This document shows positions 6,796 through 30,142 of a stretch of DNA of 61,229 bases, one piece after another. The translations under genes and the position numbers were made by a program. The notes below the pieces were generated by a model. It saw only the letters and a program-made list of their open reading frames with translations, was not told the DNA's origin and made no database searches. Position 1 is the stretch's first letter, and each line of letters begins with the position of its first letter. The DNA is taken from NCBI GenBank assembly GCA_029260055.1, contig JAJDDX010000418.1, positions 1 through 61,229 on the forward strand, read 5' to 3'. This DNA comes from Phycisphaerae bacterium (GTDB taxonomy: Bacteria; Planctomycetota; Phycisphaerae; UBA1845).

Positions 6796-6905
6796 CGAGG
6801 TCCAGTCTCCTCGCCACGCGCACCCGCGCAACGATCCAGATGCCAGCCCAAGCAGGGATCGGTCGAGCTTGAGGGTTATGCGGTGATTCTCGAAACTCAA
6901 TCACT

Positions 6906-11133: not shown

Positions 11134-11306
11134 GATGGGTGGGGACCAAGCCCTCGTTTCGTGCTGTACCCGAGATTGACCACTCGGTTCTCGCCTACTA
11201 CGTTGGCGCTCGTGTTGGTAGGCAGCAACTGGCTTCGCGACGACGGAGCTCTCGGAGGCTTCCGCCGGCGTGGCGTGCGATCGCCGTGTGGACGAGGGGC
11301 AACCTA

Positions 11307-13205
11307 GTGGTTCCCAAACGCCTGATCGCGTTTATCTCCAGCACAGCGGACCTTGCGGTGGAGCGTGAGGCCATCGAAAGCGCGCTATCTGCGCTTGAGA
11401 TCGACGGGGTACGCTTCGAAACGTGTCCATCATCACCCAACGATCCGCTCACCGAGTGCCTGCAACGCATCGAGGAATCTGACGCGCTCGTTCTTCTGTT
11501 GGGTGACCAGTACGGCACGGAACTCGCAAATGGACTGTCGTTTACGCATCAGGAGTATCGTCATGCGCGTGAGCTGGACCTCCCGGTGTTCGCTTTCAAG
11601 TTGAAGGCCGCGTCGCCGGAGAAACCGCAGGTCGCGTTTATCACTGAGGTCGAAGCCGAGGTCTTTAGATGCGCACCGGTCCGCTCGATCGAGGAACTCA
11701 CGGCCCAGGTCCGAGCCAGTTTCCTGATGGAGTATGCGCGCTGTTTTCGCCGTGTGCACACGCCGCCCCAACAACCTGTGCTTGGCCCTCCTCCGCCCGC
11801 AGGCCCCCTTCCGTCGATGCCTGGTACCCTGGACGGCTTTCGGCGACTCCTCATGGAACTCGATTCCCGTGGAGACGACGTCAGTATTCGTGTCCTCGCG
11901 GAGGAATCTGAGCGTGAGTACCTCGACGATCCGCAGGTCATCGGAATCGTCTTCGCCGCTGAAGTAAACCTCGGCATCAACGGAGTGGAGGTTGATCCGC
12001 GACGAGTCACCGACGCGATCCGGTTCTGGGAGCGGTTACTGGACGAAGCGCCGGAACGTTCTGCCGATCTCAAATACGACATCGGGAACGCGTTAGCTGT
12101 GCTGCAACGCTTCGGCGAGGCGATTGAGCAGTACCAGGCCGCACTGGACGAACAGCCTGCGTTTGCCGAATGTTGGAAGAACCTCGCGGCCGTGCACTGC
12201 GCTCAGGATAACCTGGACGCGGCACGGCACTGCCTGGAGCGAGCCATCGCGATCAAGCCTAAGCTGCCGCAGGCCCTTTACTCATTGGCCACGCTCACCA
12301 TCCAAGAGGGCGGCGATCTCGACGTCGCCCTCGCCTGGTTGAACCGTATCGCGGTCACGCGGATCCCACATGGCATGTCCGCGGCCGTCCTGGCGTGGAA
12401 GGCGCACATCTACACCAACCTCGGCCGTTTCGCTGAAGGGATCGCGTGTGTAGAGGATGCGTTATCGCTCGACCCAGAACCGAAGTGGGCGTGGATGATT
12501 GCCGCGCGGCTCTACAGTCTGGCCCGGAGGCAATCGCTGACGTGGTTGCCTGACGCAATCCAGTTCTGGCACCGGTTTTTGGACGGGCACGCTGACGTCG
12601 AAGAGGCATGGTGCGAACTTGGGTACGCTTATTGGGATGTGTGTAGAAGCACAGATAGTGAGGAGCCGAGGCGTGAGGGACGACGTGCGCTTGAGAAGGC
12701 GCTTGAGTTGGGGTTGAGCGACGGCGGCCTGGTGGAGGATCGGGTCGGGCATCTTTGCCAGGACGAAGGGAACTGGGGGGAAGCGGCGGACTTCTTTCGA
12801 TTGGCCGTAGCGAAGGACCCGAGCCAGTTCGGCTACTGCCTCGGTGTCAGCCTGACGGCTCTTGGTCAGTTCGAAGAGGCGTTGCCGTGGATCCTGGAGG
12901 CTGCCAAGCAGCACCAACCAGACGCGCTCAGCTGGTTTCAGGTCGCGTTGTGCTATGAGGGTCTCGGTCAAACGGACTACGCGATCGCGTCATATGAAAG
13001 AGCGATCGAACTCGATGAATCGTACGCTGATGCGTGGTTCAACCTGGGCGGAATCATTTGGAACAGCGGCGATCAGGAACGAGCGTTCACGGTATGGCAG
13101 GACGCGTGTCGTCGCTTTCCGGAGCATGAGCGGGCACAAGAGGTCATCGAGTTCCTCGCGCGGGCTGCGCTTATGCCTGATGCGGATCGGGCGGAAGAAG
13201 TCTAG
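11307..13205 (+). CDS. DUF4062-TPR protein
   Basis: A GTG start at 11307 has GAGGGG upstream; the frame is open to 11046 but that part overlaps the preceding gene in another frame. 632 residues. The N-terminus is a DUF4062 domain (about residues 4-145): RLIAFISSTADLAVEREAI, LTECLQRIEESDALVLLLGDQYGT, and SFTHQEYRHA. DUF4062 is a Rossmann-like fold related to TIR/SLOG-type sensor or effector domains and is typical of NTPase and conflict-system proteins. After a Pro-rich linker, about residues 165-610 consist of tetratricopeptide repeats (for example AIEQYQAALDEQPAFAECWKNLA and AIASYERAIELDESYADAWFNLG). A sensor/adaptor role with the protease encoded 67 bases downstream is plausible. Confidence 0.82.
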   Translation: MVPKRLIAFISSTADLAVEREAIESALSALEIDGVRFETCPSSPNDPLTECLQRIEESDALVLLLGDQYGTELANGLSFTHQEYRHARELDLPVFAFKLKAASPEKPQVAFITEVEAEVFRCAPVRSIEELTAQVRASFLMEYARCFRRVHTPPQQPVLGPPPPAGPLPSMPGTLDGFRRLLMELDSRGDDVSIRVLAEESEREYLDDPQVIGIVFAAEVNLGINGVEVDPRRVTDAIRFWERLLDEAPERSADLKYDIGNALAVLQRFGEAIEQYQAALDEQPAFAECWKNLAAVHCAQDNLDAARHCLERAIAIKPKLPQALYSLATLTIQEGGDLDVALAWLNRIAVTRIPHGMSAAVLAWKAHIYTNLGRFAEGIACVEDALSLDPEPKWAWMIAARLYSLARRQSLTWLPDAIQFWHRFLDGHADVEEAWCELGYAYWDVCRSTDSEEPRREGRRALEKALELGLSDGGLVEDRVGHLCQDEGNWGEAADFFRLAVAKDPSQFGYCLGVSLTALGQFEEALPWILEAAKQHQPDALSWFQVALCYEGLGQTDYAIASYERAIELDESYADAWFNLGGIIWNSGDQERAFTVWQDACRRFPEHERAQEVIEFLARAALMPDADRAEEV

Positions 13206-13272
13206 CGGCTCAGAGGTTTGCCTCGGGGAACCGCCTGCCACTTGGTGGTTGCCGGCTGACGGAGGCGGTGCG

Positions 13273-15306
13273 GTGTCAACCCGGTTCGTTGAGCGCAACT
13301 TAGCTTGGTGTGCATCGGAGTGTCGGCGGTTCCTCGCCGAACATGACTACGTCATTGCACGCACAAGAGACGAAAACCACGTCATCGAAGCTGTTTACGG
13401 CCGCAGAGACCACCTCCGCGAACTGTCGCTGTCGCGCGTACGAATCCACTTCGCGCCGTGTGCTCAGGACACAACCGAACTCGTCATCAACTTTCCCGGC
13501 CAAGTCGCCGACCTAGCACGATCAGTAACTTGGTTCCTCACCAGCACTGCGCCGGTCCTTGTCCTAGCGTTCATCTATGCGACAGGGCGTAGGCCCGAAC
13601 TACTGGCCAACCGGGCGGCGGCTGACCTAGTATTCGTCGCCAGTGGTGCGTTCGCATGTTGGATTCTCACGCGAATGGTCTTGAAGATCCATCGGGGGGA
13701 AGAGCACCGAAGACGGCTGGAGGCTGCGCTTTGGGAGCGGATGGATCCTGATGGCACACCTTCACATGAAACTGACGACTCAGCCGCGGAGCGCCGACGA
13801 GACTATGGCCTCAGGAAACTCGTCTTCTTGTGTCTGGCCGTTATCGGGTCGCTTTGGCTGAGCACGAGTTTTCTTGTCTACCTCATGACACCCGCGTCGG
13901 ATTCCGCCGAGACGAGACACCATAGCCTCGCGTTCTTTGTCGCACTTCATGTACGCTACCCCGCCGGGACGATTGTCGGACTTCTAGTGCTTTGGGCAGC
14001 TGTTCCAGGTCTGCTGATTTCTGGATGGCTGGCGGCTGCGTACAAACTCGCGCACAGGTTCCAGTGGAAGGCGAAGTTCTTTGGGGTGTACACGGTGTGG
14101 TGGGTAGCGATTAGTCTGCCTGCCCTGTTCTGGCTGATACGGTTTAGCGGAGCGGCCGTGGACGCAGAATCATCCCCGCCGAGGCTGCCGAGCGCTTTCC
14201 GTATCCTGCAAACCGGGGCAACGTGGACGGTGTTGTTTGGGCAAGTGATGTGCATGGCGGCGACATTCCGCTTAGCATCAAGGATCACGGGAATCGCCAA
14301 GGACCATCGAGAGTTCGATCCGCCGTCTACTCGCTATGAGGAGCGAGGTGCTCCGCGCGCCAACGGCAGCCCGGATCGCGCTCTTGTCAGCCTGTGTCGC
14401 TGGACTCTTGCTAACTGGGCATTTTTCTCAGTACTATGCGTTGCGTCCGCAGCTTACTTGATCTCGACCGTATGTGATGCGACCGCCGCCGTCGTGGACA
14501 GCAGCCGATACTCGTCGCAGTCGTGGCGCTGGCCCATCCTCGTTCCGTTGACGGCCCGATCTGCCGCGATCCAGGCAATCGTAGTTGCATGTATCATGGG
14601 GGTCCCGTTCGCCCTCACGTGGCTTTCAGCAGGAAACGCGATGCTTCGACGGAGGACGCGGCGGGTGCTAGGGCGGCGACTAGCACAACGCCCAGAGGAA
14701 CTCGGATTGTCGATCGATGTGGTCAATGCGCTCCAGCTAAGTCTTGAACGAATCCCAGTCGTAATCGCGCCGCTTCCCGACACTCGCATCTCTGTAGAGA
14801 TCGACGTTGGCGGCGTTTTTCGAAGAGAGGCGGTACTCTGGGTATCCATCGGCGCCATGCGACGCTTAAAAGGCGAGGAACTTGACGCGGTTCTCTGGCA
14901 TGAAGTCTACCACGCCTCGCAGTTGAAGCGAGACGCGTTTCGTGATCTCGTCGGCTTGCTCGCTCCTTGGGCATTCCGGTTTCTCGATCTACCGCGGGAT
15001 CTTTATGCGCAGGAGAAGGAAGCCGACCGCTTTGCCGCTCGACGAAGCGGATCCATCACCGTACTCGTTTCAGCTCTACGGCTGGCGTCAGAGCGCAATC
15101 GGGCTGGCCTCTCGCCAGAGAAGCGTGCGCATGATACGTTGCGCCCTGACTGGTGGCCGTCGTTCCATGCGTTCGATATACTCTTCGAGGCTGGCTGGCT
15201 GGCGTATGCCTATCCGGACGTCGCGCAGCGGATCCGTTGGCTGGAACAATACCCGATGGACGACAATCCTCAGGTAGGTGTGGAAGTGCCGTCGGCTCCT
15301 AAGTGA
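13273..15306 (+). CDS. Integral membrane M48-family metalloprotease
   Basis: A GTG start at 13273 gives about 677 residues; the frame is open farther left but overlaps the TPR gene. Hydrophobic segments cluster in the first two thirds (for example VTWFLTSTAPVLVLAFIYA, LVFLCLAVIGSLWLSTSF, TIVGLLVLWAAVPGLLISG), about eight helices. The C-terminal third is a zinc protease domain: RRLKGEELDAVLWHEVYHAS carries HEVYH at residues 543-547, and YAQEKEADRFA (E581-D585) supplies the third ligand. This is the Ste24/HtpX (M48) signature. Its N-terminal membrane region does not resemble normal HtpX. It sits 67 bases after the DUF4062-TPR gene and 33 bases before a winged-helix gene, forming a likely operon. 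Confidence 0.82.
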   Translation: MSTRFVERNLAWCASECRRFLAEHDYVIARTRDENHVIEAVYGRRDHLRELSLSRVRIHFAPCAQDTTELVINFPGQVADLARSVTWFLTSTAPVLVLAFIYATGRRPELLANRAAADLVFVASGAFACWILTRMVLKIHRGEEHRRRLEAALWERMDPDGTPSHETDDSAAERRRDYGLRKLVFLCLAVIGSLWLSTSFLVYLMTPASDSAETRHHSLAFFVALHVRYPAGTIVGLLVLWAAVPGLLISGWLAAAYKLAHRFQWKAKFFGVYTVWWVAISLPALFWLIRFSGAAVDAESSPPRLPSAFRILQTGATWTVLFGQVMCMAATFRLASRITGIAKDHREFDPPSTRYEERGAPRANGSPDRALVSLCRWTLANWAFFSVLCVASAAYLISTVCDATAAVVDSSRYSSQSWRWPILVPLTARSAAIQAIVVACIMGVPFALTWLSAGNAMLRRRTRRVLGRRLAQRPEELGLSIDVVNALQLSLERIPVVIAPLPDTRISVEIDVGGVFRREAVLWVSIGAMRRLKGEELDAVLWHEVYHASQLKRDAFRDLVGLLAPWAFRFLDLPRDLYAQEKEADRFAARRSGSITVLVSALRLASERNRAGLSPEKRAHDTLRPDWWPSFHAFDILFEAGWLAYAYPDVAQRIRWLEQYPMDDNPQVGVEVPSAPK

Positions 15307-15339
15307 GTGCCACGTCTCCGTCCTGCGTGGGAGGTGTCT

Positions 15340-16257
15340 ATGCACGAATCTGCCTTCCTTGGGAGTACCAAGCCGTTCGTCAATGAACTGGCAACCGTTC
15401 TGTGTCCCGATGAGGCTGACTTGTTCAACGACATGTGGTCGGCCCTAGATCCTATCTTCAAGGTCTGGGTTGAGGACGCTTCACGCGGGGAGACAATTGC
15501 ACCGCTTGACATTGCTGCACCTCAAGGCCTGGGATTCGCGCAAACGGCGTCTGCGGAGATGCCTATTGCGATGCTTACTGCTGTTGCGAGCATGCTTGAG
15601 CTGTGGGATGCTGGCGGCTCCAGTACGGCGGTTGGTGCGCGAGCCACGGTGGCGAAGTATGCCCAGAGCTTCGGCGCCGGAGACAGTCTCAAGCGGTGTC
15701 TCGTGGCGGAGGTTCCTGCATTCTGTTTTCGCATGTTGGACGCGATGTCGGACGCCCCTGGTTCCCCGGCTGCCACCGAACCCAACACGAAGTGCGCGCG
15801 TCGCGATCATCGAGCTGGTGAAGCATTCACAGTCATCATGGCGACGGAGACGCTGCCAGAGTTGCGTCTCGACCAGGTTGTCGAGTTCAAGAAACAGCAC
15901 TCACCGTCGGGCTTCCATATCTGGATCGATGATTCACAGCGTGAGGTGTTCGTCGATGCGTGTCCTATCCAACTGGGCCGACGCCCGACGGCCGTGTTGC
16001 GTTGCCTTGTGGAGTTCCATGGGCAGCGCGTTCGACATAGCCAGTTAGTGCAAGCCTGCGGCAAGGAACGGAGCTACAAGTCTACGGACGAGAGGGTCGC
16101 CTGGCGATGGATTTCTGATATCCGGCAAGCTGCTGGGACGCCGTTATCTAAGGAGATCGAGAGCTCGGACGGTGGCTACAGGTACGTCGGCTGCTCACGC
16201 GTTCTTATCATCCGACTGGCGAAGGACGCTCCAGCGGGTCTTCGGGCTCTGGGCTGA
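15340..16257 (+). CDS. Protein with C-terminal OmpR/PhoB-type winged helix
   Basis: ATG 15340 follows GGGAGGTG. The 305-residue protein has an uncharacterised helical N-terminal region (about residues 1-165), then a linker. About residues 190-285 resemble a trans_reg_C winged helix: strand FHIWIDDSQREVFVDACP, IQLGRRPTAVLRCLVEFHGQRV, SQLVQACG, DERVAWRWISDIRQAAG, and a closing wing DGGYRYVG. There is no receiver domain, so it is not a classical response regulator. It is the third gene of the DUF4062-TPR/M48 protease operon and could be the transcription factor or proteolysis target of that unit. Its last 50 bases overlap the convergent gene at 16208. Confidence 0.7.
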   Translation: MHESAFLGSTKPFVNELATVLCPDEADLFNDMWSALDPIFKVWVEDASRGETIAPLDIAAPQGLGFAQTASAEMPIAMLTAVASMLELWDAGGSSTAVGARATVAKYAQSFGAGDSLKRCLVAEVPAFCFRMLDAMSDAPGSPAATEPNTKCARRDHRAGEAFTVIMATETLPELRLDQVVEFKKQHSPSGFHIWIDDSQREVFVDACPIQLGRRPTAVLRCLVEFHGQRVRHSQLVQACGKERSYKSTDERVAWRWISDIRQAAGTPLSKEIESSDGGYRYVGCSRVLIIRLAKDAPAGLRALG

Positions 16258-17665: not shown

Positions 17666-17917
17666 GTGAATAAGTACACGAGGAGACCCGAAATCGACAA
17701 GCGAGCAACTCGTGCGGGAGCCATCGTGGTCAAGCTTGATGAGCAGACTGACATCGAGGTCGCGATTGCCGCCATCAGGATGGGCAAGAAGACGGTCACG
17801 CGCAACGGTCGTAAGGTGCGAGCGGACCACACGAAGGCCGACGCAGTGGTGGCGTTGGTCAAACAGGCCCTCGCGGCGAAGAGGTCGGACAGCGGAAGTG
17901 AGCCGGCCGTTGGGTAA
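17666..17917 (+). CDS. Small basic protein preceding the Ubl gene
   Basis: A GTG start at 17666 gives 83 residues. The text looks folded: AGAIVVKLDEQTDIEVAIAA, GKKTVTRNGRKVRADHTKA, DAVVALVKQALAAKR. It is rich in Lys and Arg and has no cysteine. Its stop lies 61 bases upstream of the ubiquitin-like gene, so it is likely co-transcribed. An AT-rich CTTTTTAAG at 17615-17623 lies about 45 bases upstream of the start and could be part of the promoter. No family recognised. Confidence 0.5.
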   Translation: MNKYTRRPEIDKRATRAGAIVVKLDEQTDIEVAIAAIRMGKKTVTRNGRKVRADHTKADAVVALVKQALAAKRSDSGSEPAVG

Positions 17918-17978
17918 TCGCTCGGAGGTGAGAAGCCGTACAGCTGTAGAGAACAGAGGAACACGACGGAGATCGAAC

Positions 17979-18236
17979 ATGAACGACGAAAAGAGCAAAG
18001 ACATCATCGTGTACGTTCCCGGCGCCGGGGACAAGGCCTCACGGAACGTCGAGGTAGCACCGGGAGCGACAGTGCGTGACGTCACCAGCCATCTCGGCCT
18101 GCATGGATATTGGCTAAAGAAGCCGGGCGCGGATGGGTTCTTTGGGGCGGATGAACCGATTTACGGCGCGATCAAGGATGGCGAGAAGCTAGAGGCATCG
18201 TCGCCGGCGGAGGTGGGGCAATGCGACGAGTGTTGA
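17979..18236 (+). CDS. Ubiquitin-like beta-grasp protein (Ubl)
   Basis: 85 residues from ATG 17979. The order of elements fits a ubiquitin-like beta-grasp: first strand KDIIVYVPGAG, second strand SRNVEVAPGATVRDVTSHLG leading into the helix, then GYWLKKP, FFGADEPIYGAIKDGEKLEAS. The 'V-V-P-G-A-T-V-x-D-V' hairpin-to-helix join is typical of bacterial Ubl, ThiS/MoaD and TGS proteins. The chain does not end in Gly-Gly: after G80 come five residues, QCDEC. Bacterial Ubls encoded with a JAB protease are often trimmed to expose a C-terminal Gly, so G80 is the likely conjugation residue. It overlaps the E2-like gene by 16 bases. The identification rests mainly on the downstream E1 and JAB genes. Confidence 0.75.
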   Translation: MNDEKSKDIIVYVPGAGDKASRNVEVAPGATVRDVTSHLGLHGYWLKKPGADGFFGADEPIYGAIKDGEKLEASSPAEVGQCDEC

Positions 18237-18682
18237 CGGTGATCGCGGCGTGGTGTCGTACGTGGGTCGCCGGGATCTGGCCGTTCCCGAAGTCAAATCG
18301 TGCGCGCGTGCTTTCACCGGCAGGGAATGCGCTGGTGCAGGGCGGGCGGCAGCGTCCCGGAACGTCAGTTGTACGCCCCTCTGCCGATTCGCATTTCAGA
18401 CGAAAGGGATGGCGACGGCGTGGGAGGACCGCAACAGGCTACTACCGAACGCGGCGCGGCAGCTGGCAAGGGAAGATACGTTACGACTTTGCAGGTGGCC
18501 TCGCCTACTACGTACACGATCCGCCGGACCGCATCCTCAATGGCCCGCATGGTATGTGCTTCACTGACGATGAGGGGTCGAGTACGTCCAGGGGGTGGTA
18601 TCGCGTTCATTTTGCGCGACGGCCAAATGACGTTGACAGCGGGTTGTTAATCATCGAGGCGTCGTTGGCAGGAGCACGCTGA
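18221..18682 (+). CDS. Putative E2-like (UBC-fold) protein
   Basis: 153 residues from ATG 18221 inside the end of the Ubl gene. The first 80 residues are Arg-rich with a short hydrophobic start. The C-terminal half resembles the core of divergent bacterial E2 proteins: GKIRYDFAGGLAYYVHDPP, ILNGPHGMCF with the single candidate catalytic cysteine C113, GWYRVHF, then a last strand/helix LLIIEASL. The eukaryotic HPN motif is absent; H99 or H110 would have to take its place. The assignment is inferred from position between Ubl and JAB genes plus this weak pattern. An alternative is an unrelated accessory protein. The stop overlaps the JAB start (TGATG). Confidence 0.55.
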   Translation: MRRVLTVIAAWCRTWVAGIWPFPKSNRARVLSPAGNALVQGGRQRPGTSVVRPSADSHFRRKGWRRRGRTATGYYRTRRGSWQGKIRYDFAGGLAYYVHDPPDRILNGPHGMCFTDDEGSSTSRGWYRVHFARRPNDVDSGLLIIEASLAGAR

Positions 18683-19368
18683 TGAACCAGAGCATAGCAG
18701 AACGGTGTCTCTGTCGGGCTGTCTATCGAACAGCGCACGGTCTTCCGTCCAGCTTGTGGCAGGGGATGCGGTTGGGGTGGCGCCTGCTGAACACCCCGCT
18801 CCCGTACACCTGTGTGCGGCCGCAGCGAGAAGGGGCGGCGCAGCCTGTGCGGCGGCCCGGAGTCCCGCGCTACGTGGTCAGTTCGTGGTTCCTCTGGGAC
18901 AGTTATCGCGCCACGACCGAAACGCCGGAGGAATCACTTCATTTTGCCACAGCGATCGAAGCCGACCGGGCATTCTACCTGACGAGGAGCATTATGTTCC
19001 CGCTGGCCCACCAATCAGTGGCGGGTGCAACAGGTGATCACGCCGCGACGCACGCAGCCTGCGTTACCGCGGATCAATTCGGCCACCGGATCGCGCTGAT
19101 CGCGCACAGCCATCCTGGCTTCGGGGCGTCCGCGACACATCCATCGTCGACGGATCATGCGACGCACGCGCGGTTTGAGCAGGGCGGCTTCCCGGTGATC
19201 GGCTGCATCTTCTCCCGGGATGGGTTCGCGCGGTTCTTTAGTCACCGGCGGTGTTTCACCGTCGAGGTGTTTGGGAGCGGCATATCGAAGGAGGGTGATC
19301 GTGTTTTCAAACTGGATACCAGCGAAGCATTTTCGGTGTCAGACCGTGCGGCCGCGTGCGCGGGGTAG
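18682..19368 (+). CDS. JAB/JAMM metallo-isopeptidase (deubiquitinase-like)
   Basis: 228 residues; the ATG overlaps the previous stop. The JAMM signature is clear: LIAHSHPGFGASATHPSSTD gives the zinc ligands H142 and H144 and the downstream S155-x-x-D158; a Glu upstream (possibly E93 in AIEAD) would be the catalytic base. After it, ARFEQGGFPVIGCIFSRDGFARFF is the usual strand pair of JAB domains in prokaryotic Ubl operons. The expected role is to trim the Ubl tail and/or remove Ubl from targets. The last 68 bases overlap the E1 gene in another frame. Confidence 0.85.
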   Translation: MNQSIAERCLCRAVYRTAHGLPSSLWQGMRLGWRLLNTPLPYTCVRPQREGAAQPVRRPGVPRYVVSSWFLWDSYRATTETPEESLHFATAIEADRAFYLTRSIMFPLAHQSVAGATGDHAATHAACVTADQFGHRIALIAHSHPGFGASATHPSSTDHATHARFEQGGFPVIGCIFSRDGFARFFSHRRCFTVEVFGSGISKEGDRVFKLDTSEAFSVSDRAAACAG

Positions 19369-20107
19369 AGCTGGCGTTACGGCGCGTCATGATCGCGTGC
19401 CAGGATTTTCGCAGAAGACGTTGTCCGCGGCACGCGCGTTCACGATCGGTGCCGGTGGGATCATCAGCTGGCTTGCGTGTGGGCTTGTGCGGAAAGGCAT
19501 CGGAACGCTGCACGTCTGCGATGGCGATGCCGTTGAGTTGTCCAACTTGTCGCGACAGCTCTTTGGCGCGCGTGACGTGGGCAAGAACAAGGCCGTGCGG
19601 CTCGCGCGCAATCTGCGGGCTCAAGGATTCTGCGGGACGCGCCTGACCGCGTATCCACTGCGGTTCGAGGAACTCGTCGCATTGGAGATAATGCCTGCAG
19701 TTGATCTGGTTGTGGTCGGGGTCGATGACCATGCCGCGCGTCTGGCCGTGATGCGATGGTGCGCTGCGGCGAGGAAGCCAGCAGTGTTCATTGCCGTGTC
19801 ACCGGACGCGGATAACGGGTACGTCTTTGTGTATAAGCCCGGTGCGGCGTGTTTGTGCTGTGTGCTGCCTGATCTTGTACGCCTGGGTGAGGAGGGCCGC
19901 CGGCCGTGTCCAGGGGCCCCGGCAACGCTCGATGTTCTGCTGTCGGTTGCTGGTTTCGCGACATACGCGATCGACAGCTTGCTCATGGAGCGGCCGCGGT
20001 CCTGGAACTTCCGGCGCGTGTTTCTTTCTGGCGATGGGGAGGATTGTGCGTGGGCAGTACCTCAGCAGCCTGCATGTCCTGTCTGCAGCGGTGAGGACGT
20101 ACCGTGA
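19301..20107 (+). CDS. ThiF/MoeB/E1-like Ubl-activating enzyme
   Basis: A GTG start at 19301 is chosen because a full AAGGAGGGTG lies 6 bases upstream. 268 residues. The Rossmann loop GAGGIIS (residues 50-56), DGDAVELSNLSRQ (74-86) and DVGKNKA (92-98) are the adenylation motifs of the E1 superfamily. VVVGVDDHAARL follows, then the zinc pairs C184/C187 and C259/C262 (CLCC, CPVC). C203 in RPCPGAPAT sits where ThiF-type enzymes carry the catalytic loop, so it is a thioester candidate. The enzyme would adenylate the Ubl C-terminal Gly and pass it to the E2-like protein. Short for a eukaryotic E1 but usual for bacterial ones. Confidence 0.88.
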   Translation: MFSNWIPAKHFRCQTVRPRARGRAGVTARHDRVPGFSQKTLSAARAFTIGAGGIISWLACGLVRKGIGTLHVCDGDAVELSNLSRQLFGARDVGKNKAVRLARNLRAQGFCGTRLTAYPLRFEELVALEIMPAVDLVVVGVDDHAARLAVMRWCAAARKPAVFIAVSPDADNGYVFVYKPGAACLCCVLPDLVRLGEEGRRPCPGAPATLDVLLSVAGFATYAIDSLLMERPRSWNFRRVFLSGDGEDCAWAVPQQPACPVCSGEDVP

Positions 20108-20316
20108 ACGTGCAGGAGCTGATCGAGTCGATCGTCGAGCGCTTCCGCGCGGCTGGTGGTGGGGGGCGAACGACAACGACGCGCGTGGTGGGTGGTCGGG
20201 TGGCGGACCGCGGCGTGGCCACGGGAACCGACGACTTCGATTGCGAAGAGGAACTGGGACATGGTGTCATAACACAAGGAGTAGATCGATGGAAAGACTG
20301 CTTGCCCTCTTGCTAG
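20104..20316 (+). CDS. Small protein coupled to the E1 gene
   Basis: The GTG start at 20104 overlaps the E1 stop (GTGA), a classic coupling arrangement, and the frame overlaps the next gene by 28 bases. 70 residues: an opening helix (VNVQELIESIVERFRAAG), a Gly/Thr/Arg-rich middle and an acidic patch (TDDFDCEEELGHG). No family recognised. It may be a real small subunit or an overlapping open frame; only its position and the helix support it. Confidence 0.4.
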   Translation: MNVQELIESIVERFRAAGGGGRTTTTRVVGGRVADRGVATGTDDFDCEEELGHGVITQGVDRWKDCLPSC

Positions 20317-20558
20317 CCGTCCGCGTTCTTCGATATGCGCTCCCGATCCTCGTCGGAACGCTCGGCGGTTGCCTTTTCTTTGAGCGCGTGGCCGCCCCGA
20401 ATCTGGGTTGGGGCCACGCCCTGTTGTTCACCGCAGTAATCACGGCGGTGCTGATCTCAAATTGTCGGGGTTGGCTGAATCCGCCGGCCCGCCGCCCAAC
20501 TCGGCCTCTGAGCGAGCCTCGAAGTCGCCGTACCGGCACCCGGAGGCCGAAACCATGA
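20289..20558 (+). CDS. Small two-helix membrane protein
   Basis: ATG 20289 with AAGGAG 7 bases upstream gives 89 residues. There are two hydrophobic segments: about residues 3-26 (LLALLLAVRVLRYALPILVG) and 40-57 (HALLFTAVITAVLIS), joined by a short loop. The C-terminus is basic and Pro/Arg-rich (PPARRPTRPLSEPRSRRTG), suggesting a cytoplasmic tail. It ends with ATGA overlap into the next gene. It belongs to the Ubl operon by spacing and strand. Function unknown; it may tether the system to the membrane. Confidence 0.65.
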   Translation: MERLLALLLAVRVLRYALPILVGTLGGCLFFERVAAPNLGWGHALLFTAVITAVLISNCRGWLNPPARRPTRPLSEPRSRRTGTRRPKP

Positions 20559-21154
20559 ACGTCTGTCGAGACTGCCGCGAACGAATCGCCGGACCGGAGC
20601 CGGTGTCGGAGTGGCCGTTTCCGGCGTGGCCGGTTGCCGCCGGAGCGCTGGGTGCGCTGGCAGCGGCCGTGACCGGCGCCGTACTCCTCGTGCCCGCCGC
20701 ACTTGTTGCCGGTGTGCTCACGAGTGTGCGTCCGCGCCGATGCGACCTGTGCGAGGCGGCCATCGATGCTGCGGACGGCAGCTTCCAGCTGCTCCAGGAC
20801 ACCTCGGATCAAGAGGGACGGCGCATCTTCGAGTCACTGAGCCCACCGGAGGAGTCAGGCGTGGAAAACCGTGATCGATTTGCGCCTTCGACGGACCGTG
20901 GAAGAACCGCGCTCGACGATCCGGCTCCGCCCTGGTACGGCGATCCGGTCCAGGAAGCCGACGATCCAGGGGCCTCGCAGGCTTACGTCTATGACGAGTC
21001 CCTGGGCACGCTGGTCGCCGACGAGACCGCAGCGCCGGCAGCCTTCTCCTTCTTCGAGTCGATCGCCGACGGCAACGCCGACGGATGGGGCGCGGGCGAC
21101 TTCGATGTGAGTGGATTCGACGGCTTTGGTGACGGTTCTGGGGGCGACGCCTAG
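20555..21154 (+). CDS. Zinc-binding membrane protein with acidic Gly/Asp tail
   Basis: 199 residues, start ATG 20555 overlapping the previous stop. C4 and C7 (CRDC) lie before, and C63 and C66 (CDLC) after, a hydrophobic hairpin (about residues 24-57, AWPVAAGALGALAAAVTGAV and VLLVPAALVAGVLT). All four cysteines would be on the same face of the membrane and could form one zinc site around the hairpin. The C-terminal half is acidic and likely disordered, ending in Asp/Gly/Phe repeats (GDFDVSGFDGFGDGSGGDA). No family recognised. The layout suggests a membrane adaptor in the Ubl operon. Confidence 0.65.
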   Translation: MNVCRDCRERIAGPEPVSEWPFPAWPVAAGALGALAAAVTGAVLLVPAALVAGVLTSVRPRRCDLCEAAIDAADGSFQLLQDTSDQEGRRIFESLSPPEESGVENRDRFAPSTDRGRTALDDPAPPWYGDPVQEADDPGASQAYVYDESLGTLVADETAAPAAFSFFESIADGNADGWGAGDFDVSGFDGFGDGSGGDA

Positions 21155-21214
21155 GCACGATCACCACGCCGCGATCCGGCCGCGCCCGTCGGATCATCGG
21201 GGAGGATCACGATC

Positions 21215-21763
21215 ATGAGACGCATCTTTCGAACTCTCTATCAGATCGACTGGCGCGGCGGTGTCCGCGCCGTTAAGCGTGAGCAACTGACGGACTACGA
21301 GGATGGAACCGTCGAGGAAGTCCAAGCGATCGGCGTGGCCAATTGCGAGGCGTGCCAACGTCCGGTCGAGAAGCTTGCGGACTACCGCGGTGTGTGCCCG
21401 CGCTGCGAACGGGAAACTTGCGTCGAGTGCCAAGCAACCTGCGCCGCATGTCGGCGCCGCTTCTGCGCGTACTGCATGGTCGGATTCGCCGACAAGGTGG
21501 TAAGCGTCTGCGAGCGCTGCCTGATCGGCCTCGAACAGAGAGTGGCACGTCAGGACCGCCAGATCGACGCGAAGCTTACTCACGATCGCCTCATCGCGCT
21601 GTTCAACGCCGAACTGAAGTTCCTTGAACTCAGCACACGAGAGGGCGGAGCCATGGCGGACCTGATCTCGTGGATAATGCGCGTCCGCCTGGCGCAACGC
21701 CTGTCCCGGCTCGAGCACACGCTGGACCATGAAGACCGTCATGACCCACGACGCCTGCGCTAG
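21215..21763 (+). CDS. Cysteine-rich protein with six CxxC pairs (RING/treble-clef-like candidate)
   Basis: ATG 21215 with GGGAGG upstream; 182 residues. Residues 44-102 contain twelve cysteines as six CxxC pairs: C44/C47, C61/C64, C69/C72, C76/C79, C84/C87, C99/C102. This could bind up to three zinc ions; the two central pairs (CAACRRRFCAYC) have the close spacing of FYVE/RING-like binuclear treble clefs. The flanking regions are a basic N-terminus and a C-terminal helical region (LIALFNAELKFLELS, RLAQRLSRLEHTLDH). RING-like proteins occur in some prokaryotic Ubl operons, so an E3 or adaptor role is a reasonable hypothesis, not shown. It overlaps the HerA-like gene by 35 bases. Confidence 0.7.
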   Translation: MRRIFRTLYQIDWRGGVRAVKREQLTDYEDGTVEEVQAIGVANCEACQRPVEKLADYRGVCPRCERETCVECQATCAACRRRFCAYCMVGFADKVVSVCERCLIGLEQRVARQDRQIDAKLTHDRLIALFNAELKFLELSTREGGAMADLISWIMRVRLAQRLSRLEHTLDHEDRHDPRRLR

Positions 21764-23960
21764 CGAATTCGAGTCCCAGGGCTTCGAGCGGATCGGTGGG
21801 ATTCACTACAATCTCGCGATCGCGCTCTGGTGGCACCCTCGGCTGTGCATCCACGCGAGCGTACTCGCGGTCGATGACTGGCACCTCCTTCAGTCAGGCA
21901 AGCCGTACCTTCTGCGGTCGATGGCGGAGGAGGGGGAGACCTACGCCCGGGATCTTGGCCTGCTCGAGGAGTACCTCGTCGCGCATTTTCCGGAGGCACA
22001 TCTGTCGCTGTCCTCGTTCCGAGATCCGACGCTCAGCCTGATTCAGGCCCGTATCGATGCGAGACACACTCGACACGCCAACGCCTGCGGACCGGACGGC
22101 AGCGCCGCCATGCAACAGGAACTCGATCGACTCACGGGCGAAGCGGATGAGCTTCAAGAGGCGCAGCAACGTGACCGGGCGCTGCAACGACTCGACCGGA
22201 ACACGTCGCCTCTGCTCCGCGAACATCTCAACCGGAACTTGGGCGATCGCTCGCGGAAGGTGGAGGACCTACGTCGGAACGCGCGCGAGACCCGGGAGCG
22301 CCTCTCAGCGCAAGGCCAACTGGAACGCGAGTATCGCGGCAAATCCAATGCGCTGTGCCTGCTCTTCACGATATGCTCAAACATCCAGATCGTGCGGGAT
22401 GCAGACTCGGTCCAAGACGCCCTGTCCAGCGTGACCAAAGAGATCGTAGATCTGGACAGGTTTCAGGTCCGACAGAAGCTCGAAGGCGGGTCGCTGCGCA
22501 TCTATGTCGAGGCGTCTCCCGCTCCGGCGGTTTCCCTCCTTACGCACGCCACGCGGACCATCATGAATCCTCGTCAACTCGAACGCCTGGGAGAGGCTGC
22601 ACAGCCCGTTCGAGATGCCGTCGAACGCCAGTTGATGCTCGTGCCGCGAGAGGACATCCGGGTCAACGGCTCGGTCGTTGATCCAAAGAAACTCATTGCC
22701 TCACGGATCGTGCAGAGCTTCCTGCAGCATCTCCCCAAAGGTACGGCCGCACGCGCGCGCGGAGCTGATCCCGTTCCGGCCAGCGCTCAGCCGCTCTGGA
22801 TCGGGACCATCGCGGAGGCAGGACCGCGGCGCGGCGACCCCTGGGTGCTCCCGCTGGATCGCAGTGGTCATGTCTACATCTCCGGCCGAAGCAACGCGGG
22901 TAAGACCTTCCTCGGGCGGGTCATCGCGGAATCGGCTGCAACGCTCGAATCGGTCAGCGTCGTTGTCATCGATCCGTCGAACCAGGCGGTCGGTCTTCTC
23001 TGCCCGGAGGATCGGCCCGAGGTCCTGGCGCGGTACCGCCGATTCGGCCTGAAACGCAGTGATGCGCAGGCATTTCCCTTTACCTACCACGGTCTCGCCG
23101 ACTCGGTAGGCGAACCGCTTCCGTCCGATCTGGGCCAGCTGGCGCACGGATACCACATCGTCAGCTTCACCGGGCTCGATGACGGGAGCCGCTGCATTCG
23201 CTTCGCGGCGATCATGGATGCGCTCTTCGCCGCCTGCTCGGTTGGCGAGGCCGAATCCGTCCGCCTTGTGATCCTGATCGAAGAGGCACACCGATTCACG
23301 CGCCGAGGTGTCGATCGGGAGGCACGCGAGGCCGCCGACCGGGCGGAGCTCAGCTTGGAGCGCCATGCCAGGGAGGGCCGGAAGTATGGAATTCGGCTGT
23401 TCATCAGCAGCCAGTCCATCAAGGACTTTTCGTTCAGCGCGGCGGCAATACGGCAGAACGTGTCGACGCGGGTGTTCATGCAGAATAGCGATCGTGAACT
23501 CGACTATGCCGCGGACCACATCGGGGATGGAAGACGAATTCTCAGGCTCCCCCGCGGCGAGGCGCTCTTCTGCAATCCCGATTGGGAGATTGCTCATGTC
23601 GCCGTTCGGCCGCCACTTTCGATGGTCCGGCAGCCGACCGAAGCCGAGATCTGCCGCTTGGTCGGTGGGCCGACCGCGACCTCCTCGTCACTATCACGCC
23701 AGGCCATGGCCGCGCTCGATGCGATTACTGGCCACGTCGATGCGACGGGCGGACCGGTCCGATGGTCGAAGATCGTTGAGGAACTCGGCGTCACCGGCCG
23801 ACGCGTGCGCGATCGGCTTGTCGACGAACTCCAAGGCAGCGGGCACGTCGCCTTCACTCGGTTGAAAGCAACGGGGCGGCCGCTCGTCGTCACGCTGGCG
23901 CGCGCAGAAACCGCGCTGAAAGGGCGCGCGGAAACGCCATCAACTCAGAGCATTGATTAA
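21729..23960 (+). CDS. HerA/FtsK-superfamily ATPase with coiled coil and winged-helix end
   Basis: 743 residues from ATG 21729 (a second ATG at 21741). About residues 115-205 form a coiled coil (ELDRLTGEADELQEAQQRDR). The ATPase core has Walker A ISGRSNAGKT (residues about 384-393), Walker B VRLVILIEEAHRF (about 512-524), and the segment LERHAREGRKYGIRLFISSQS, which carries the arginine finger and sensor of HerA-type hexameric pumps. The last 90 residues (AMAALDAITGHVDATGGPVRWSK..., ELGVTGRRVRDRLVDELQGSG) read as a winged helix. HerA relatives translocate DNA or power defence complexes. It is coupled to the Cys-rich gene and closes the Ubl cluster. Confidence 0.8.
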   Translation: MKTVMTHDACASEFESQGFERIGGIHYNLAIALWWHPRLCIHASVLAVDDWHLLQSGKPYLLRSMAEEGETYARDLGLLEEYLVAHFPEAHLSLSSFRDPTLSLIQARIDARHTRHANACGPDGSAAMQQELDRLTGEADELQEAQQRDRALQRLDRNTSPLLREHLNRNLGDRSRKVEDLRRNARETRERLSAQGQLEREYRGKSNALCLLFTICSNIQIVRDADSVQDALSSVTKEIVDLDRFQVRQKLEGGSLRIYVEASPAPAVSLLTHATRTIMNPRQLERLGEAAQPVRDAVERQLMLVPREDIRVNGSVVDPKKLIASRIVQSFLQHLPKGTAARARGADPVPASAQPLWIGTIAEAGPRRGDPWVLPLDRSGHVYISGRSNAGKTFLGRVIAESAATLESVSVVVIDPSNQAVGLLCPEDRPEVLARYRRFGLKRSDAQAFPFTYHGLADSVGEPLPSDLGQLAHGYHIVSFTGLDDGSRCIRFAAIMDALFAACSVGEAESVRLVILIEEAHRFTRRGVDREAREAADRAELSLERHAREGRKYGIRLFISSQSIKDFSFSAAAIRQNVSTRVFMQNSDRELDYAADHIGDGRRILRLPRGEALFCNPDWEIAHVAVRPPLSMVRQPTEAEICRLVGGPTATSSSLSRQAMAALDAITGHVDATGGPVRWSKIVEELGVTGRRVRDRLVDELQGSGHVAFTRLKATGRPLVVTLARAETALKGRAETPSTQSID

Positions 23961-24212: not shown

Positions 24213-24665
24213 ATGAACGGACAGCGGCCGAACAGTCGGAAGAGGAAGGCACGCCCCGCACCAGCCGCGCTGGCTTCGCGGAAGCAGCAGACCATCGAAG
24301 TGATCGCTGACGATCACGCGCCAGTGCCGCAGGCCGGTAGCGCCTCACCCGACCGCGACGGGCTTGATTCCGCTCACTGGCTCGAGCGTACGCTCGAAGC
24401 CTGGCAGAAATTCTCGCCGCAAACACTGACGCAGGACGACGCGAAGCGGATCGCCGCGGCGGGAATACGGTTCGTGGACGCCCTTTGGGAGGACGAGGAT
24501 GATGACTCTGATCTCCATCTGCCGGGTGAGCTCAAGAGAGCAGAAGGAGGGCTACAGCCTCGATGCTCAGGATCGGGCCAACCGCGAATGGTCCAGGCGG
24601 AACGGCCATACCATCCTGGAGACGATTCTCTACCAGGAAACCGCGAGCAAACGGGCGAAACGTGA
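24213..24665 (+). CDS. Small protein upstream of the serine recombinase
   Basis: The frame from ATG 24213 (MNGQRPNSRKRKARPAPAA) has a basic N-terminus and a helical segment DSAHWLERTLEAWQKFSPQTLTQDDAKRIAAAGIRFVDALWEDEDDD, which looks like the small proteins often found just before recombinase genes in mobile elements. After that point it runs 167 bases into the recombinase gene in another frame, with low-quality text. The true end may differ or the overlap may be real. The region 23961-24212 before it holds nothing I can support. Confidence 0.45.
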   Translation: MNGQRPNSRKRKARPAPAALASRKQQTIEVIADDHAPVPQAGSASPDRDGLDSAHWLERTLEAWQKFSPQTLTQDDAKRIAAAGIRFVDALWEDEDDDSDLHLPGELKRAEGGLQPRCSGSGQPRMVQAERPYHPGDDSLPGNREQTGET

Positions 24666-25998
24666 GCGATGGCGTACGATTCTCGATCGGATCCGGGACG
24701 ATCCGCGAGTGGACGGGGCGGTGTTCCACAAGATCGACCGGGCCTCCCGCAACATGCCCGATTGGTACCAGATCGAGCAACTGCAGGACGAGTTCGGCAA
24801 GAGTTTCTTCTTCGCCACGCAGAACTTTGCGACGGACGCCACGGGACGGCTCAACGCCCGTGTCATGGCGTCGTTCGCCGCCTTCTACACCGAGAACTTG
24901 GCCGAGGAGGTCAAGAAGGGATTTGCGGAGGCGATCAGGCGGGGGCATTTTCCGCATCGACCACCGTACGGCTACCGGCACTACCGTTCGAATGGGCACA
25001 CGAGTGAGATCGTGGTCGACGAAACGAGGGCATCAACGGTCAGGTTGATCTATGAACTGTACGCGAGCCGTCAGCACTCGCTGAGCTCACTCCGCGAACA
25101 CCTCTTCAGGGAAGGTATCTACTATACCGAGAAGACACCGAGGTTCGTCCGATCGCACCTCGAGAAGCTTCTCAAAAACCGCTTCTACCTTGGAAAAATC
25201 CCGTGGCGAGGCGGGCTCCATCCCGGCAGGCATCCCGCGATCATCACGCCGGCACTGTTCGACCGGGTACAGGCCGTCTTCGCCGGCCACAACCGACACC
25301 ACTATGGTCGCTGGGATGTCTACTACAGCGGCGGCCTGATCACTTGCGGGCAATGTGAAGCCGCCGTGACGGTCGAGGTCGTCAAGGGCAGGTACGCTTA
25401 CGCTCGCTGCTCACGGATCGGACACGCCGGTCACCCGAGAATCCGCCTGCCCGGCCGCCGGATCGAGGGCCATCTGCTCGAGATCGTACGTGCCATCAGC
25501 CTCCCCACCGATGTTTGCGAGTGGCTCGGCGATCTGAACGCACAGCGTGAAGTCGGGCGAGTCGCGTGGCAGGTCGAGCAGGAACGGAGGCTTCTGACGC
25601 GTACGGAGAGATTGCGGACACGGCTGGATGCCCTCTACATCGATAAGCTCCACGAGGAGATCTCCGTCGAACGGTACCGGGATCTGGAGCGTACCTGGCA
25701 CGCGGAAGTCGGCGAGGTGGAACGGGCGATCAGTCGGTGTCGCGAGCGGCGTGACGCCGAACTTGTCCGGCGTCAGAGTATGATCGAGCGGCTGCGAGAT
25801 CCTGTGGTGTCGTACGTCCACATGCGGCCGGCGGCGAGGCGGCGGATCCTCGATGCCCTCTGTCTGGAGATTCGTCTCGTCGGTGACCGGCTCGTCCCCA
25901 CCTACCATGCTCCCTTTGATCTCCTCGTGCGAGCGTGCTCCTATGGCCCCGGCATCGGTCGCGACGACCCGGTTGCCGTCGCCGGTCGGCGGGAATAG
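24499..25998 (+). CDS. Large serine recombinase (copy 1)
   Basis: 499 residues from ATG 24499 (GACGAGG just upstream). Domains in order: resolvase catalytic domain (about 4-150) with ISICRVSSREQ, where S11 is the expected nucleophile, and KIDRASRNMPDW; a recombinase domain (about 155-265) with FPHRPPYGYRHY; a zinc-ribbon (about 275-320) with GGLITCGQCEAAVTVEVV and YARCSR; then a coiled-coil region and the end VPTYHAPFDLL. Such enzymes integrate and excise mobile elements at short att sites. About three quarters of the catalytic domain residues match copy 2 at 28301, so they are close paralogues. It could be the integrase of a first, older element. Confidence 0.92.
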   Translation: MMTLISICRVSSREQKEGYSLDAQDRANREWSRRNGHTILETILYQETASKRAKRERWRTILDRIRDDPRVDGAVFHKIDRASRNMPDWYQIEQLQDEFGKSFFFATQNFATDATGRLNARVMASFAAFYTENLAEEVKKGFAEAIRRGHFPHRPPYGYRHYRSNGHTSEIVVDETRASTVRLIYELYASRQHSLSSLREHLFREGIYYTEKTPRFVRSHLEKLLKNRFYLGKIPWRGGLHPGRHPAIITPALFDRVQAVFAGHNRHHYGRWDVYYSGGLITCGQCEAAVTVEVVKGRYAYARCSRIGHAGHPRIRLPGRRIEGHLLEIVRAISLPTDVCEWLGDLNAQREVGRVAWQVEQERRLLTRTERLRTRLDALYIDKLHEEISVERYRDLERTWHAEVGEVERAISRCRERRDAELVRRQSMIERLRDPVVSYVHMRPAARRRILDALCLEIRLVGDRLVPTYHAPFDLLVRACSYGPGIGRDDPVAVAGRRE

Positions 25999-28300: not shown

Positions 28301-30142
28301 ATGAACCTGGTATCCATATGCCGCGTCAGTTCGCGAGAACAACGCGAAGGCTACAGCCTCGACGCTCAGGATCGAGCCAACCGTGAATGGGCGAGCCGGA
28401 ACGGGCATGTCATCGTCAGGACCATCCAGTATCAGGAGACGGCTAGCCAGAACAAGAAACGAGAGCAGTGGAACGCAATGCTCGCACAGATCCGCGACGA
28501 TCCCGATATCGACGGTGCGGTGTTGCACAAGATCGATCGCGCCTCCCGCAACATGCCCGACTGGTACCAGATGGAGGAACTCCAGGCGACGCGTGGGAAG
28601 AGCTTCTTCTTTGCAACCCAGAATTTTGCGACGGATGCCACGGGACGGCTCAATGCCAGAGTGATGGCATCTTTCTCCGCATTCTACACTGAGAATCTGG
28701 CGGACGAAGTGCGGAAGGGATTCGAAGAGGCGATCCGGCAGGGGCACTTCCCGCACTCACCGCCCTATGGTTACCGGCACCGGCGTACGGGTGAACGAAG
28801 GACGCGGATCGTGATTGATGAGGAACGGGCAGCTAAAGTCCGTCGGATCTACGAGTTGTATGCCACGCAGGAGCACTCGCTGACTTCGCTTCGCGAACAT
28901 CTGTTCGCGAACGGTGTGTTCTACACGGGAAGGACGCCCCGCTTCACGCGATCCTACCTTGATCTCATGCTCAAGAACCGCTTCTACGTTGGAGATATCC
29001 CGTGGCGCGGGCACGTGTATCCCGGAAACCATCCACCGATCGCGTCGCAGGAGCTGTTCGACCGAGTACAGAAGGCATTCGCTGCTCACAACCGGCACGA
29101 CTACCGCAAACAGCGGGTCTACTACGGTGGCGGGCTGATCACTTGTGGTCATTGCGACCGCGCGGTCACGGTCGAACTCATCAGGGAGAAGTACGCTTAC
29201 GCTCGCTGCTCGCGCGCGACGGCGGCCGGCCACCCAAGGACGCGCTTACGAGGTGCGGATGTCGAGGGTCAGTTGCTTGAGATTGTGCGGGCGGTCGAGC
29301 TGCCGGAAGACGTCCTTGCCCGGCTGGACGGGTTGGCGCGCAAGGACGGGATGGCGGAAGCCGAGTGGAACCGCAGCCAGGGGCGGCAGTTATCCCGACA
29401 GGCCGCGAGACTTCGACACCGCCTGGACGCGGCGTACGCCGACAAACTGGACGGCGTGATTTCGGACGAACGCTATGAGAAGCTTGAGCGGTCGTGGCGG
29501 TGCGAGCTGCGCCAAGTCGAGGAAGCGACTGCGGACAGCCGGGGCTCGACCGTGCGGCCGCTTACTCACACCCTCAGGGCGTTTGAACTCACGCAAGGCC
29601 TTGCGGGAAGGTATGTTACGGAGAATCCCGCCGAGAGACGGACGACCCTTGATAGGCTGTGTTTGAACATCTGCCTCGACGACGTAAGTCTTGTGCCTAC
29701 ATACAATAAGCCCTTCGACCTAGTGGCCGAAGGGCATCGAAGAGGGTTTGATTCGGGGCGACAGGATTTGAACCTGCGACTTCCTGCTCCCAAAGCAGGC
29801 GCGCTACCGGGCTGCGCCACGCCCCGAACTTGCCTTCAGGATACCAATTCCGTGGTGTTTCGCAAGCATGGAGCGGCGCGTCGACGCTTCGCCGTCGCCT
29901 ACGCCACTTTGATCACCACAATGGTGATATCGTCCGATTGCCGCGCGAGGCCGGCAAAGCGGCGCACGTCCCATAGAAGCTGCTGTGCCAATTGCTGCGC
30001 GTCCAGATCGCGGTGCCGCAGGATCGACGCAAGAAGGCGCTGCTTGCCGTACTCTCGGTCGTCGAAGTCCAGCGCCTCGGTGACGCCGTCCGTCACGATC
30101 GCGAGGATGTCGCCCGGAAGGAAGGCGATCTCCTCGTGTTGA
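28301..30142 (+). CDS. Large serine recombinase (copy 2), reading into tRNA-Pro
   Basis: ATG 28301 follows AAGGAGGAG. The first ~480 residues are a complete large serine recombinase: catalytic domain with SICRVSSREQ (S10), KIDRASRNMPDW, recombinase domain with FPHSPPYGYRH, zinc ribbon GGLITCGHCDRAVTVELI with YARCSR, coiled coil, and the end VPTYNKPFDLVAEG. At about 29750 the frame runs without a stop into the tRNA-Pro gene in antisense (text DSGRQDLNLRLPAPKAG) and on through the phosphatase gene to 30142. The last ~130 residues are therefore host sequence, not recombinase. The tRNA 3' end meets the recombinase 3' end, which suggests that integration used this tRNA as target. Confidence 0.88.
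   Translation: MNLVSICRVSSREQREGYSLDAQDRANREWASRNGHVIVRTIQYQETASQNKKREQWNAMLAQIRDDPDIDGAVLHKIDRASRNMPDWYQMEELQATRGKSFFFATQNFATDATGRLNARVMASFSAFYTENLADEVRKGFEEAIRQGHFPHSPPYGYRHRRTGERRTRIVIDEERAAKVRRIYELYATQEHSLTSLREHLFANGVFYTGRTPRFTRSYLDLMLKNRFYVGDIPWRGHVYPGNHPPIASQELFDRVQKAFAAHNRHDYRKQRVYYGGGLITCGHCDRAVTVELIREKYAYARCSRATAAGHPRTRLRGADVEGQLLEIVRAVELPEDVLARLDGLARKDGMAEAEWNRSQGRQLSRQAARLRHRLDAAYADKLDGVISDERYEKLERSWRCELRQVEEATADSRGSTVRPLTHTLRAFELTQGLAGRYVTENPAERRTTLDRLCLNICLDDVSLVPTYNKPFDLVAEGHRRGFDSGRQDLNLRLPAPKAGALPGCATPRTCLQDTNSVVFRKHGAARRRFAVAYATLITTMVISSDCRARPAKRRTSHRSCCANCCASRSRCRRIDARRRCLPYSRSSKSSASVTPSVTIARMSPGRKAISSC
29753..29826 (-). tRNA. tRNA-Pro (TGG anticodon)
   Basis: The reverse strand folds as a full tRNA of 74 bases: acceptor CGGGGCG/CGCCCCG with discriminator A, D arm GCGC...GCGC containing AGCCCGGTA, anticodon stem CCTGC/GCAGG with loop TTTGGGA (anticodon TGG), T arm GCAGG-TTCAAAT-CCTGT. 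The C1-G72 pair is typical of bacterial tRNA-Pro. CCA is not encoded. Its 3' end faces the recombinase gene, so the chromosomal gene has stayed intact after insertion. Confidence 0.95.

Follow-up and report, generated by a model that had tools for sequence, protein, structure and literature searches.

A predicted ubiquitin-like conjugation operon continuing into membrane, zinc-binding and HerA-like ATPase genes in a planctomycete

A single plus-strand operon occupies positions 17979-23960 of a 61,229-nucleotide stretch (contig JAJDDX010000418.1, here called the window) from a Phycisphaerae bacterium, a planctomycete with a genome of 7.63 Mb. It contains genes for a ubiquitin-like protein (Ubl), an E2-like protein, a JAMM peptidase, an E1-like enzyme, a membrane protein, a Cys-rich protein with two transmembrane (TM) segments, a six-CxxC protein and a HerA-like ATPase. 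Such a same-strand run, from the Ubl to the genes downstream of the E1, had been read from the sequence in an original prediction and is borne out where it was placed; the Ubl-first order also stands, with the Ubl gene at 17979, after the correction that the frame at 17666 is a separate gene for an 83-amino-acid product (g0) and not the Ubl. The genes are listed below together with their counterparts in L004, a locus of the Planctomycetota metagenome-assembled genome JAUWWQ010000006 (apparently G729:C10), from the same family as the window.

17666-17917, plus strand: g0, a small gene of 83 amino acids; a 51% identical counterpart lies at the same position in L004
17979-18236, plus strand: Ubl, a single beta-grasp-type domain of 85 amino acids ending ..SSPAEVG-QCDEC, proposed from a six-member family and an hhalign comparison with ThiS/MoaD
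18221-18682, plus strand: E2-like conjugating enzyme with predicted catalytic Cys113 and partner His130, from a seven-member alignment and an AlphaFold core model
18682-19368, plus strand: JAMM (JAB) peptidase with an N-terminal extension; Pfam Prok-JAB below cut-off, catalytic residues invariant
19301-20107, plus strand: E1-like adenylating enzyme with a single ThiF-type domain (Pfam ThiF); the GTG start aligns with the L004 ATG
20104-20316, plus strand: doubtful open frame of 70 amino acids, without a counterpart in L004
20289-20558, plus strand: small membrane protein with two hydrophobic segments by hydropathy, 41% identical in L004
20555-21154, plus strand: Cys-rich protein (two CxxC) with a TM hairpin and an acidic tail, 26% identical in L004
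21215-21763, plus strand: six-CxxC zinc-binding protein with a helical C-terminal half, 42% identical in L004
21729-23960, plus strand: HerA/FtsK-superfamily ATPase with a 360-amino-acid N-terminal region (PADLOC mad8, HerA), 46% identical over its whole length in L004

The genes are tightly packed, with overlaps of 16 bp (Ubl/E2), 1 bp (E2/JAMM), at least 62 bp (JAMM/E1), 4 bp (TM/Cys) and 35 bp (six-CxxC/HerA), and a gap of 60 bp between the Cys-rich and six-CxxC genes; the E1 probably starts at GTG 19301. The order g0-Ubl-E2-JAMM-E1-TM-Cys-CxxC-HerA is the same in L004, at protein identities of 26-65%. Between the two loci the third codon positions differ most in 9/9 genes (weakly for the Cys/TM gene), so that the block is under protein-level constraint and is more than a set of chance open frames. 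It opens with g0, whose product is lysine-rich and whose homologue is present in L004 and was not found in the other cassette loci described below. Three small zinc or membrane proteins had been proposed after the E1, of which those at 20289 and 20555 are conserved in L004. The frame at 20104-20316 is doubtful, since L004, whose E1 and TM genes overlap each other, lacks a counterpart.

The Ubl family comprises six members, all of 77-85 amino acids. A comparison with a single ThiS had been uninformative, and a ThiS/MoaD profile was built from proteins collected in relatives. Against this profile the Ubl scores 25.7 in hhalign (P 2e-4, 55 columns), the best of 40 column shuffles reaching 18.1, and V79-G80 coincide with the GG end of ThiS/MoaD in a global alignment. 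By this modest profile score the Ubl resembles ThiS/MoaD and is a predicted beta-grasp protein. The C-terminal VG is conserved (AGG in locus L018), beyond which stand tails of 0-6 residues (QCDEC, AEVRAA, LRACA, KK and AR among the copies) or a fusion; the L004 Ubl alone terminates exactly at VG. In L017:8772-9452 (minus strand) the Ubl and E2 share a single open frame: ..AEVG is not followed by a stop, and the closest internal GTG codons lie just ahead of the junction. The two may be made as a fused precursor that the JAMM enzyme cuts, or their starts may overlap. The tails, together with the in-frame fusion, imply proteolytic maturation of the Ubl, and the enzyme that trims them would be the JAMM peptidase.

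The 18221 protein has no sequence match in Pfam, PHROG, NCBIfam or PDB. In an alignment of seven members Cys113 and a downstream His130 are invariant (7/7), the spacing between the two being +17 in the window and +12 in L017 and L030. An upstream His (GPHGxC) is present in most members and not aligned in all, and the N-terminal region is variable, either hydrophobic or basic. Folding from two sequences only gave a poor model (predicted local distance difference test, pLDDT, 48.7), which was remedied by the seven-sequence input, the resulting AlphaFold core reaching a pLDDT of 89.4 and a predicted template modelling score of 0.82. This core consists of a four-strand meander, a loop carrying Cys113 and a C-terminal helix. 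When Foldseek candidates were re-aligned to it, the first 24 rows were all UBC/E2/UEV/RWD/Atg3-type folds (Z 4.8-7.0), including BubB (PDB 9eae chain C, Z 6.5, 17% identity over 95 residues), CdnG-E2, Cap2 and UBE2A. The E2 fold, which the original prediction had proposed for this protein, is considered likely, although not proven, because of the uniform fold class of the matches and the invariant Cys and His. A frameshift in the gene, suspected from a flat codon-position guanine-cytosine profile, was rejected, as the frame is conserved in L004 with third-position excess.

The JAMM peptidase scores 17.6 bits against Pfam Prok-JAB, under the cut-off; E84, H142, S143, H144, S155 and D158 are invariant in all six family members. 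The best PDB matches of the family profile are Rpn11 (E 0.005) and BilC (E 0.006), both isopeptidases. The identity of the E1 is unambiguous (Pfam ThiF, 97.6 bits, 8e-28). It is a protein of ~268 amino acids with one ThiF domain and without an inactive half, closest in sequence to ThiF/MoeB and MccB models, its PDB relatives being MccB, ThiF, UBA5, Cap2 and BilD. Forty-three residues are invariant in six members (numbered on the frame window:19307-20104), among them GAGG, D72, D74, N80, R83, K95, D140, the Zn cysteines C182/C185/C257/C260 and an additional C201 that might be a thioester cysteine.

Beyond the E1, the four Cys and the hairpin of the 20555 protein are kept in L004. The 21215 protein does contain the six CxxC motifs ascribed to it, five of which, and 11/12 Cys, are kept in L004. 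Its proposed RING-like nature is not established, as the pattern is all-Cys, a conserved His is absent and no RING family matched up to E 1; the best leads are FYVE/Siva/IBR, all under cut-offs. It is a candidate E3 or adaptor; its homology to the zinc protein of L018 is not significant. The 21729 protein had been named HerA-like, correctly in kind, and by its motifs it is a divergent HerA/FtsK-superfamily ATPase. Walker A GRSNAGKT (G386..GK392), Walker B IEEAH (E518-E519) and R575-Q576-N577 are invariant with L004, and the PADLOC models mad8 (53 bits, 8e-15) and HerA (35 bits, 1e-9) match, with Pfam DUF87 under its cut-off. The C-terminal region is apparently winged-helix by eye.

JAMM and E2 profile searches over planctomycete genomes identified five further divergent cassettes in at least three other classes, all of them rare (~1% of genomes).

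L017: fused Ubl-E2, JAMM with an N-terminal TM segment, E1, TM protein, VirD4/TraG-type ATPase, Replic_Relax, primase
L018: Ubl, E2 with an N-terminal TM segment, JAMM, E1, TM protein, Cys-rich protein, FtsK/TrwB-like ATPase, excisionase, tyrosine integrase
L029 (short contig): Ubl, E2, JAMM, E1, primase, excisionase
L030: methyltransferase, ATPase, Replic_Relax, zinc-ribbon/TM protein, integrase, then Ubl, E2, JAMM, E1
L039: Ubl, E2, JAMM, E1, ATPase, Replic_Relax, double-zinc-ribbon/TM protein, primase, integrases

A DNA-translocase ATPase (HerA-, FtsK- or VirD4/TraG-like) stands 0-3.5 kb from the cassette in 6/7 loci. Neighbourhood conservation, followed past the E1, extends through the ATPase in L004. 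It recurs with other ATPases in L017, L018, L030 and L039, and none is seen in L029, whose contig ends 1.8 kb past the E1. The suggested membrane association recurs across loci in the form of membrane segments, and the ATPase has TM or zinc genes as neighbours in L018, L030 and L039 and a TM gene in L017. The ATPase family of L017, L030 and L039 is present in 15/148 genomes of one class (~36 copies), and a clear cassette in 3/297 genomes. Since so few genomes contain this ATPase family, chance adjacency to the cassette is unlikely. The cassette is nested among pump-bearing elements. A second VirD4/TraG-like copy lies ~7 kb past the L039 cassette on the other strand (L039:17374-18426), and one relative gave seven matches to the family.

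Profile matches at L019 (G125), L031, L032 and L040 were rejected, the other cassette genes being absent. Searches of plasmids, phages and viral contigs for the cassette yielded nothing beyond generic relatives of MoeB/ThiF and partial E1 matches that lacked a neighbouring E2 or JAMM, and a Spirosoma match (H1) proved to be a thiamine operon.

The operon had been matched to the bacterial ISG15-like (BIL) defence operons, and it does share with BilABCD the Ubl-E2-JAMM-E1 functions and order, a Ubl precursor tail and an E2 with a downstream His. BIL systems are defined by a BilA with two beta-grasp domains, a BilD with inactive and active adenylation domains and a BilB with CEHH (PMC11354881), this motif being Cys, Glu+6, His+8 and His+13. 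Here, however, there is one Ubl domain, the E1 of ~268 amino acids lacks the inactive adenylation half of BilD (535 amino acids in the PDB chain, 8tyz), and CEHH is absent, only Cys113 and one downstream His being invariant. Judged on these sequence features, the operon would work like BIL while falling outside it. A closer comparison is operon type 6d of Iyer, Burroughs and Aravind 2006 (PMC1779556), most though not all of whose features are fitted: a standalone small Ubl with a conserved C-terminal Gly and a separate E1, a separate E2 that lacks the classical His but has a conserved Cys and, downstream of it, an invariant His, and an N-terminal extension of the JAMM. The strictly conserved Arg and Trp of the type 6d JAB extension are absent from the six members here. 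No candidate was recognised for the helical partner with conserved charged residues, g0 occurring only in the window and L004. Further differences are the extra membrane, zinc and ATPase genes and the lack of any Pfam family match for the E2 and Ubl.

The bacterial ubiquitination-like (Bub) operons, compared by the E2 core alone, are alike in that this core matches BubB. The PRTRC systems (ParB-related, ThiF-related) of plasmids and integrative conjugative elements also have Ubl-type E1 genes on mobile elements, but the E1 here scores 43 bits against a TIGR03736 cut-off of 144.75, and no family matches to the PRTRC A/B/C/ParB, Prok_Ub or Prok-E2_D partners were detected. Unlike the fused Cap2 of the Type II cyclic oligonucleotide-based antiphage signalling system (CBASS), the E1 and E2 are separate, and no CD-NTase is found among the operon proteins scanned. 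HerA defence systems and VirD4/TraG coupling ATPases have a HerA/FtsK-superfamily ATPase core in common with the 21729 protein, which differs in its long N-terminal region, in scoring under curated cut-offs and in its link to a Ubl cassette. No published account of the exact combination was found in the literature searched, the coverage of which leaves outside the defining work on the BIL mechanism, Bub and prokaryotic RING proteins.

The operon belongs to an island at a tRNA gene, the further features of which are as follows.

24499-25998, plus strand: large serine recombinase of the island (Pfam Resolvase and Recombinase), 64% identical to the L004 recombinase
28301-30142, plus strand: second serine recombinase, the frame of which runs into tRNA-Pro; 72% DNA identity to the first and 67% protein identity to L004
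29752-29827, minus strand: tRNA-Pro(tgg), likely attachment site (ARAGORN); the tRNA followed by a SpoIIE-type gene is also found in L004

In L004 the HerA gene is followed by a DNA methyltransferase and then by the same serine recombinase as in the window, again located at this tRNA-Pro and next to the SpoIIE-type gene. As the SpoIIE-type proteins (64%) and E1 enzymes (65%) are about equally identical between window and L004, the island probably descends from their common ancestor. The two islands have only the g0-HerA block and the recombinase in common, genes left of g0 being without similarity. Two other relatives examined, G760 and G752, contain SpoIIE and neither this tRNA nor the adjoining element. 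The two serine recombinases of the window are related and in tandem, and the second runs into the tRNA-Pro, a layout suggesting that two insertions are stacked at a single attachment site. Genes for N6/N4 DNA methyltransferases are found near the cassette at L004:13042-14067 (146 bits) and L030:2789-3457 (tblastn match), and the window shows no equivalent gene in the interval from HerA to the recombinase.

Upstream in the same island, ~7 kb from the Ubl operon, is a Hachiman locus (window 7170-10357) of HamA (PF08878, 203 bits) followed by a DEAD-box helicase with a 16 bp overlap. It is flanked by genes for a DUF6119 protein (329 bits; 5155-6900, minus strand) and a DUF4062 and TPR-repeat protein (11046-13205, plus strand), an arrangement as in defence islands. 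The frame at 12862-15306 encodes a membrane protein with an HEVYH motif, M48-type metallopeptidase-like by eye, with no Pfam match for the frame used. At a similar distance upstream of the operon, window 15307-16257 and L004:3712-4662 encode proteins that by eye resemble winged-helix regulators and have no significant similarity to one another.

Taken together, the complete four-function set with intact motifs, the predicted E2 fold, the gene order kept in L004 and the recurrence of ATPases beside the cassette point to a Ubl conjugation and deconjugation module of an integrative element, acting with a membrane-docked DNA-translocating ATPase; we place the probability of this reading at about 0.5. 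The JAMM enzyme would trim the Ubl tail (QCDEC in the window) behind the conserved VG, whereupon the short E1 would adenylate the Ubl and possibly load it on C201. The Ubl would then pass to Cys113 of the E2, with His130 replacing the classical E2 histidine. The six-CxxC zinc protein might serve as an E3-like adaptor, placing the Ubl onto a target that the TM proteins keep at the membrane. This target would most likely be the HerA-like pump, one of its partners or a protein on the DNA that the pump handles, and the JAMM could later reverse the attachment. We infer that the Ubl may be transferred to the pump or control it. The module would thereby control the passage of DNA into or out of the cell, whether for exclusion and defence or for element transfer. 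Hydrophobic N-termini of the E2 or JAMM, or TM proteins, and zinc proteins between E1 and pump, make the anatomy fit a membrane-placed Ubl relay. Defence as a purpose is favoured by Hachiman in the same island, the mad8-like HerA and the known bacterial Ubl roles, and element transfer by the integrase, primase, Replic_Relax and VirD4-like ATPases. More tentatively, and with the odds against so broad a statement, the cassettes may form a distinct class of Ubl systems on integrative elements across planctomycete classes, with undescribed E2 and Ubl families and dedicated to a membrane-docked pump, in which reversible tagging licenses, blocks or redirects translocation by way of a multi-CxxC adaptor or E3.

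Several observations weigh against the pump-linked module. The beta-grasp call for the Ubl draws on a modest profile score and not on structure, Foldseek alone gave no significant PDB/E2 match for the E2 core, and structural Z values of 5-7 lie below 8, where by the tool's own warning a common arrangement may be reflected. L029 is without an ATPase before its contig ends 1.8 kb past the E1, and across loci the ATPases and zinc proteins are not detectably homologous at full length. ATPases of the L017/L030/L039 type occur also without the cassette, adjacency not being interaction, and those beside integrase, primase and Replic_Relax could be mere mobility genes of the element. A less likely alternative is that Ubl-E2-JAMM-E1 is an independent defence or regulation module carried as cargo, the neighbouring ATPase, TM and zinc genes serving the element for its own DNA transfer and having no functional link to the module. 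The VirD4/TraG-like character of the ATPases in L017, L030 and L039, their setting, the ~10x greater frequency of their family compared with the cassette and the integrase between ATPase and cassette in L030 all speak for it. Against it, the HerA and zinc genes overlap in both the window and L004, their order persisting through the turnover of the rest of the island, the ATPase and E1 genes overlap in L039, and the HerA subfamily of the window was found only with the cassette (1/392 genomes, plus L004).

A BIL-like anti-phage defence, with the Ubl attached to phage proteins in the course of infection and the additional genes acting as accessory effectors, appears improbable given the three BIL-defining features that fail (the Ubl is single, and the inactive adenylation half and CEHH are missing), even though the four functions stand in BIL order, Hachiman lies 7 kb upstream in the same island, the best PADLOC model of the HerA is a defence-system component and the known bacterial E1/E2 systems CBASS and BIL are antiviral (PMC10097602; PMC11354881). 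Far less credible still is a sulfur-carrier pathway in which a ThiS/MoaD-like carrier and a ThiF-like E1 would work without any conjugation to proteins. The affinities of both proteins agree with it, whereas all seven loci encode an E2-fold protein with invariant Cys and His and a deubiquitinase-like JAMM, no rhodanese or biosynthetic gene was seen nearby, and the genome carries separate ThiS/MoaD-type genes besides the Ubl.

The bacterial Ubl pathways known so far have cGAS-like enzymes or phage proteins as targets, or targets still to be identified. The one-frame Ubl-E2 of L017 and the very short E1 bear on what a minimal E1-E2 relay may be. A recurring link between the cassette and a membrane translocase would supply such pathways with a concrete target class and would tie Ubl tagging to the control of horizontal gene transfer, with regulation of the pump being testable.

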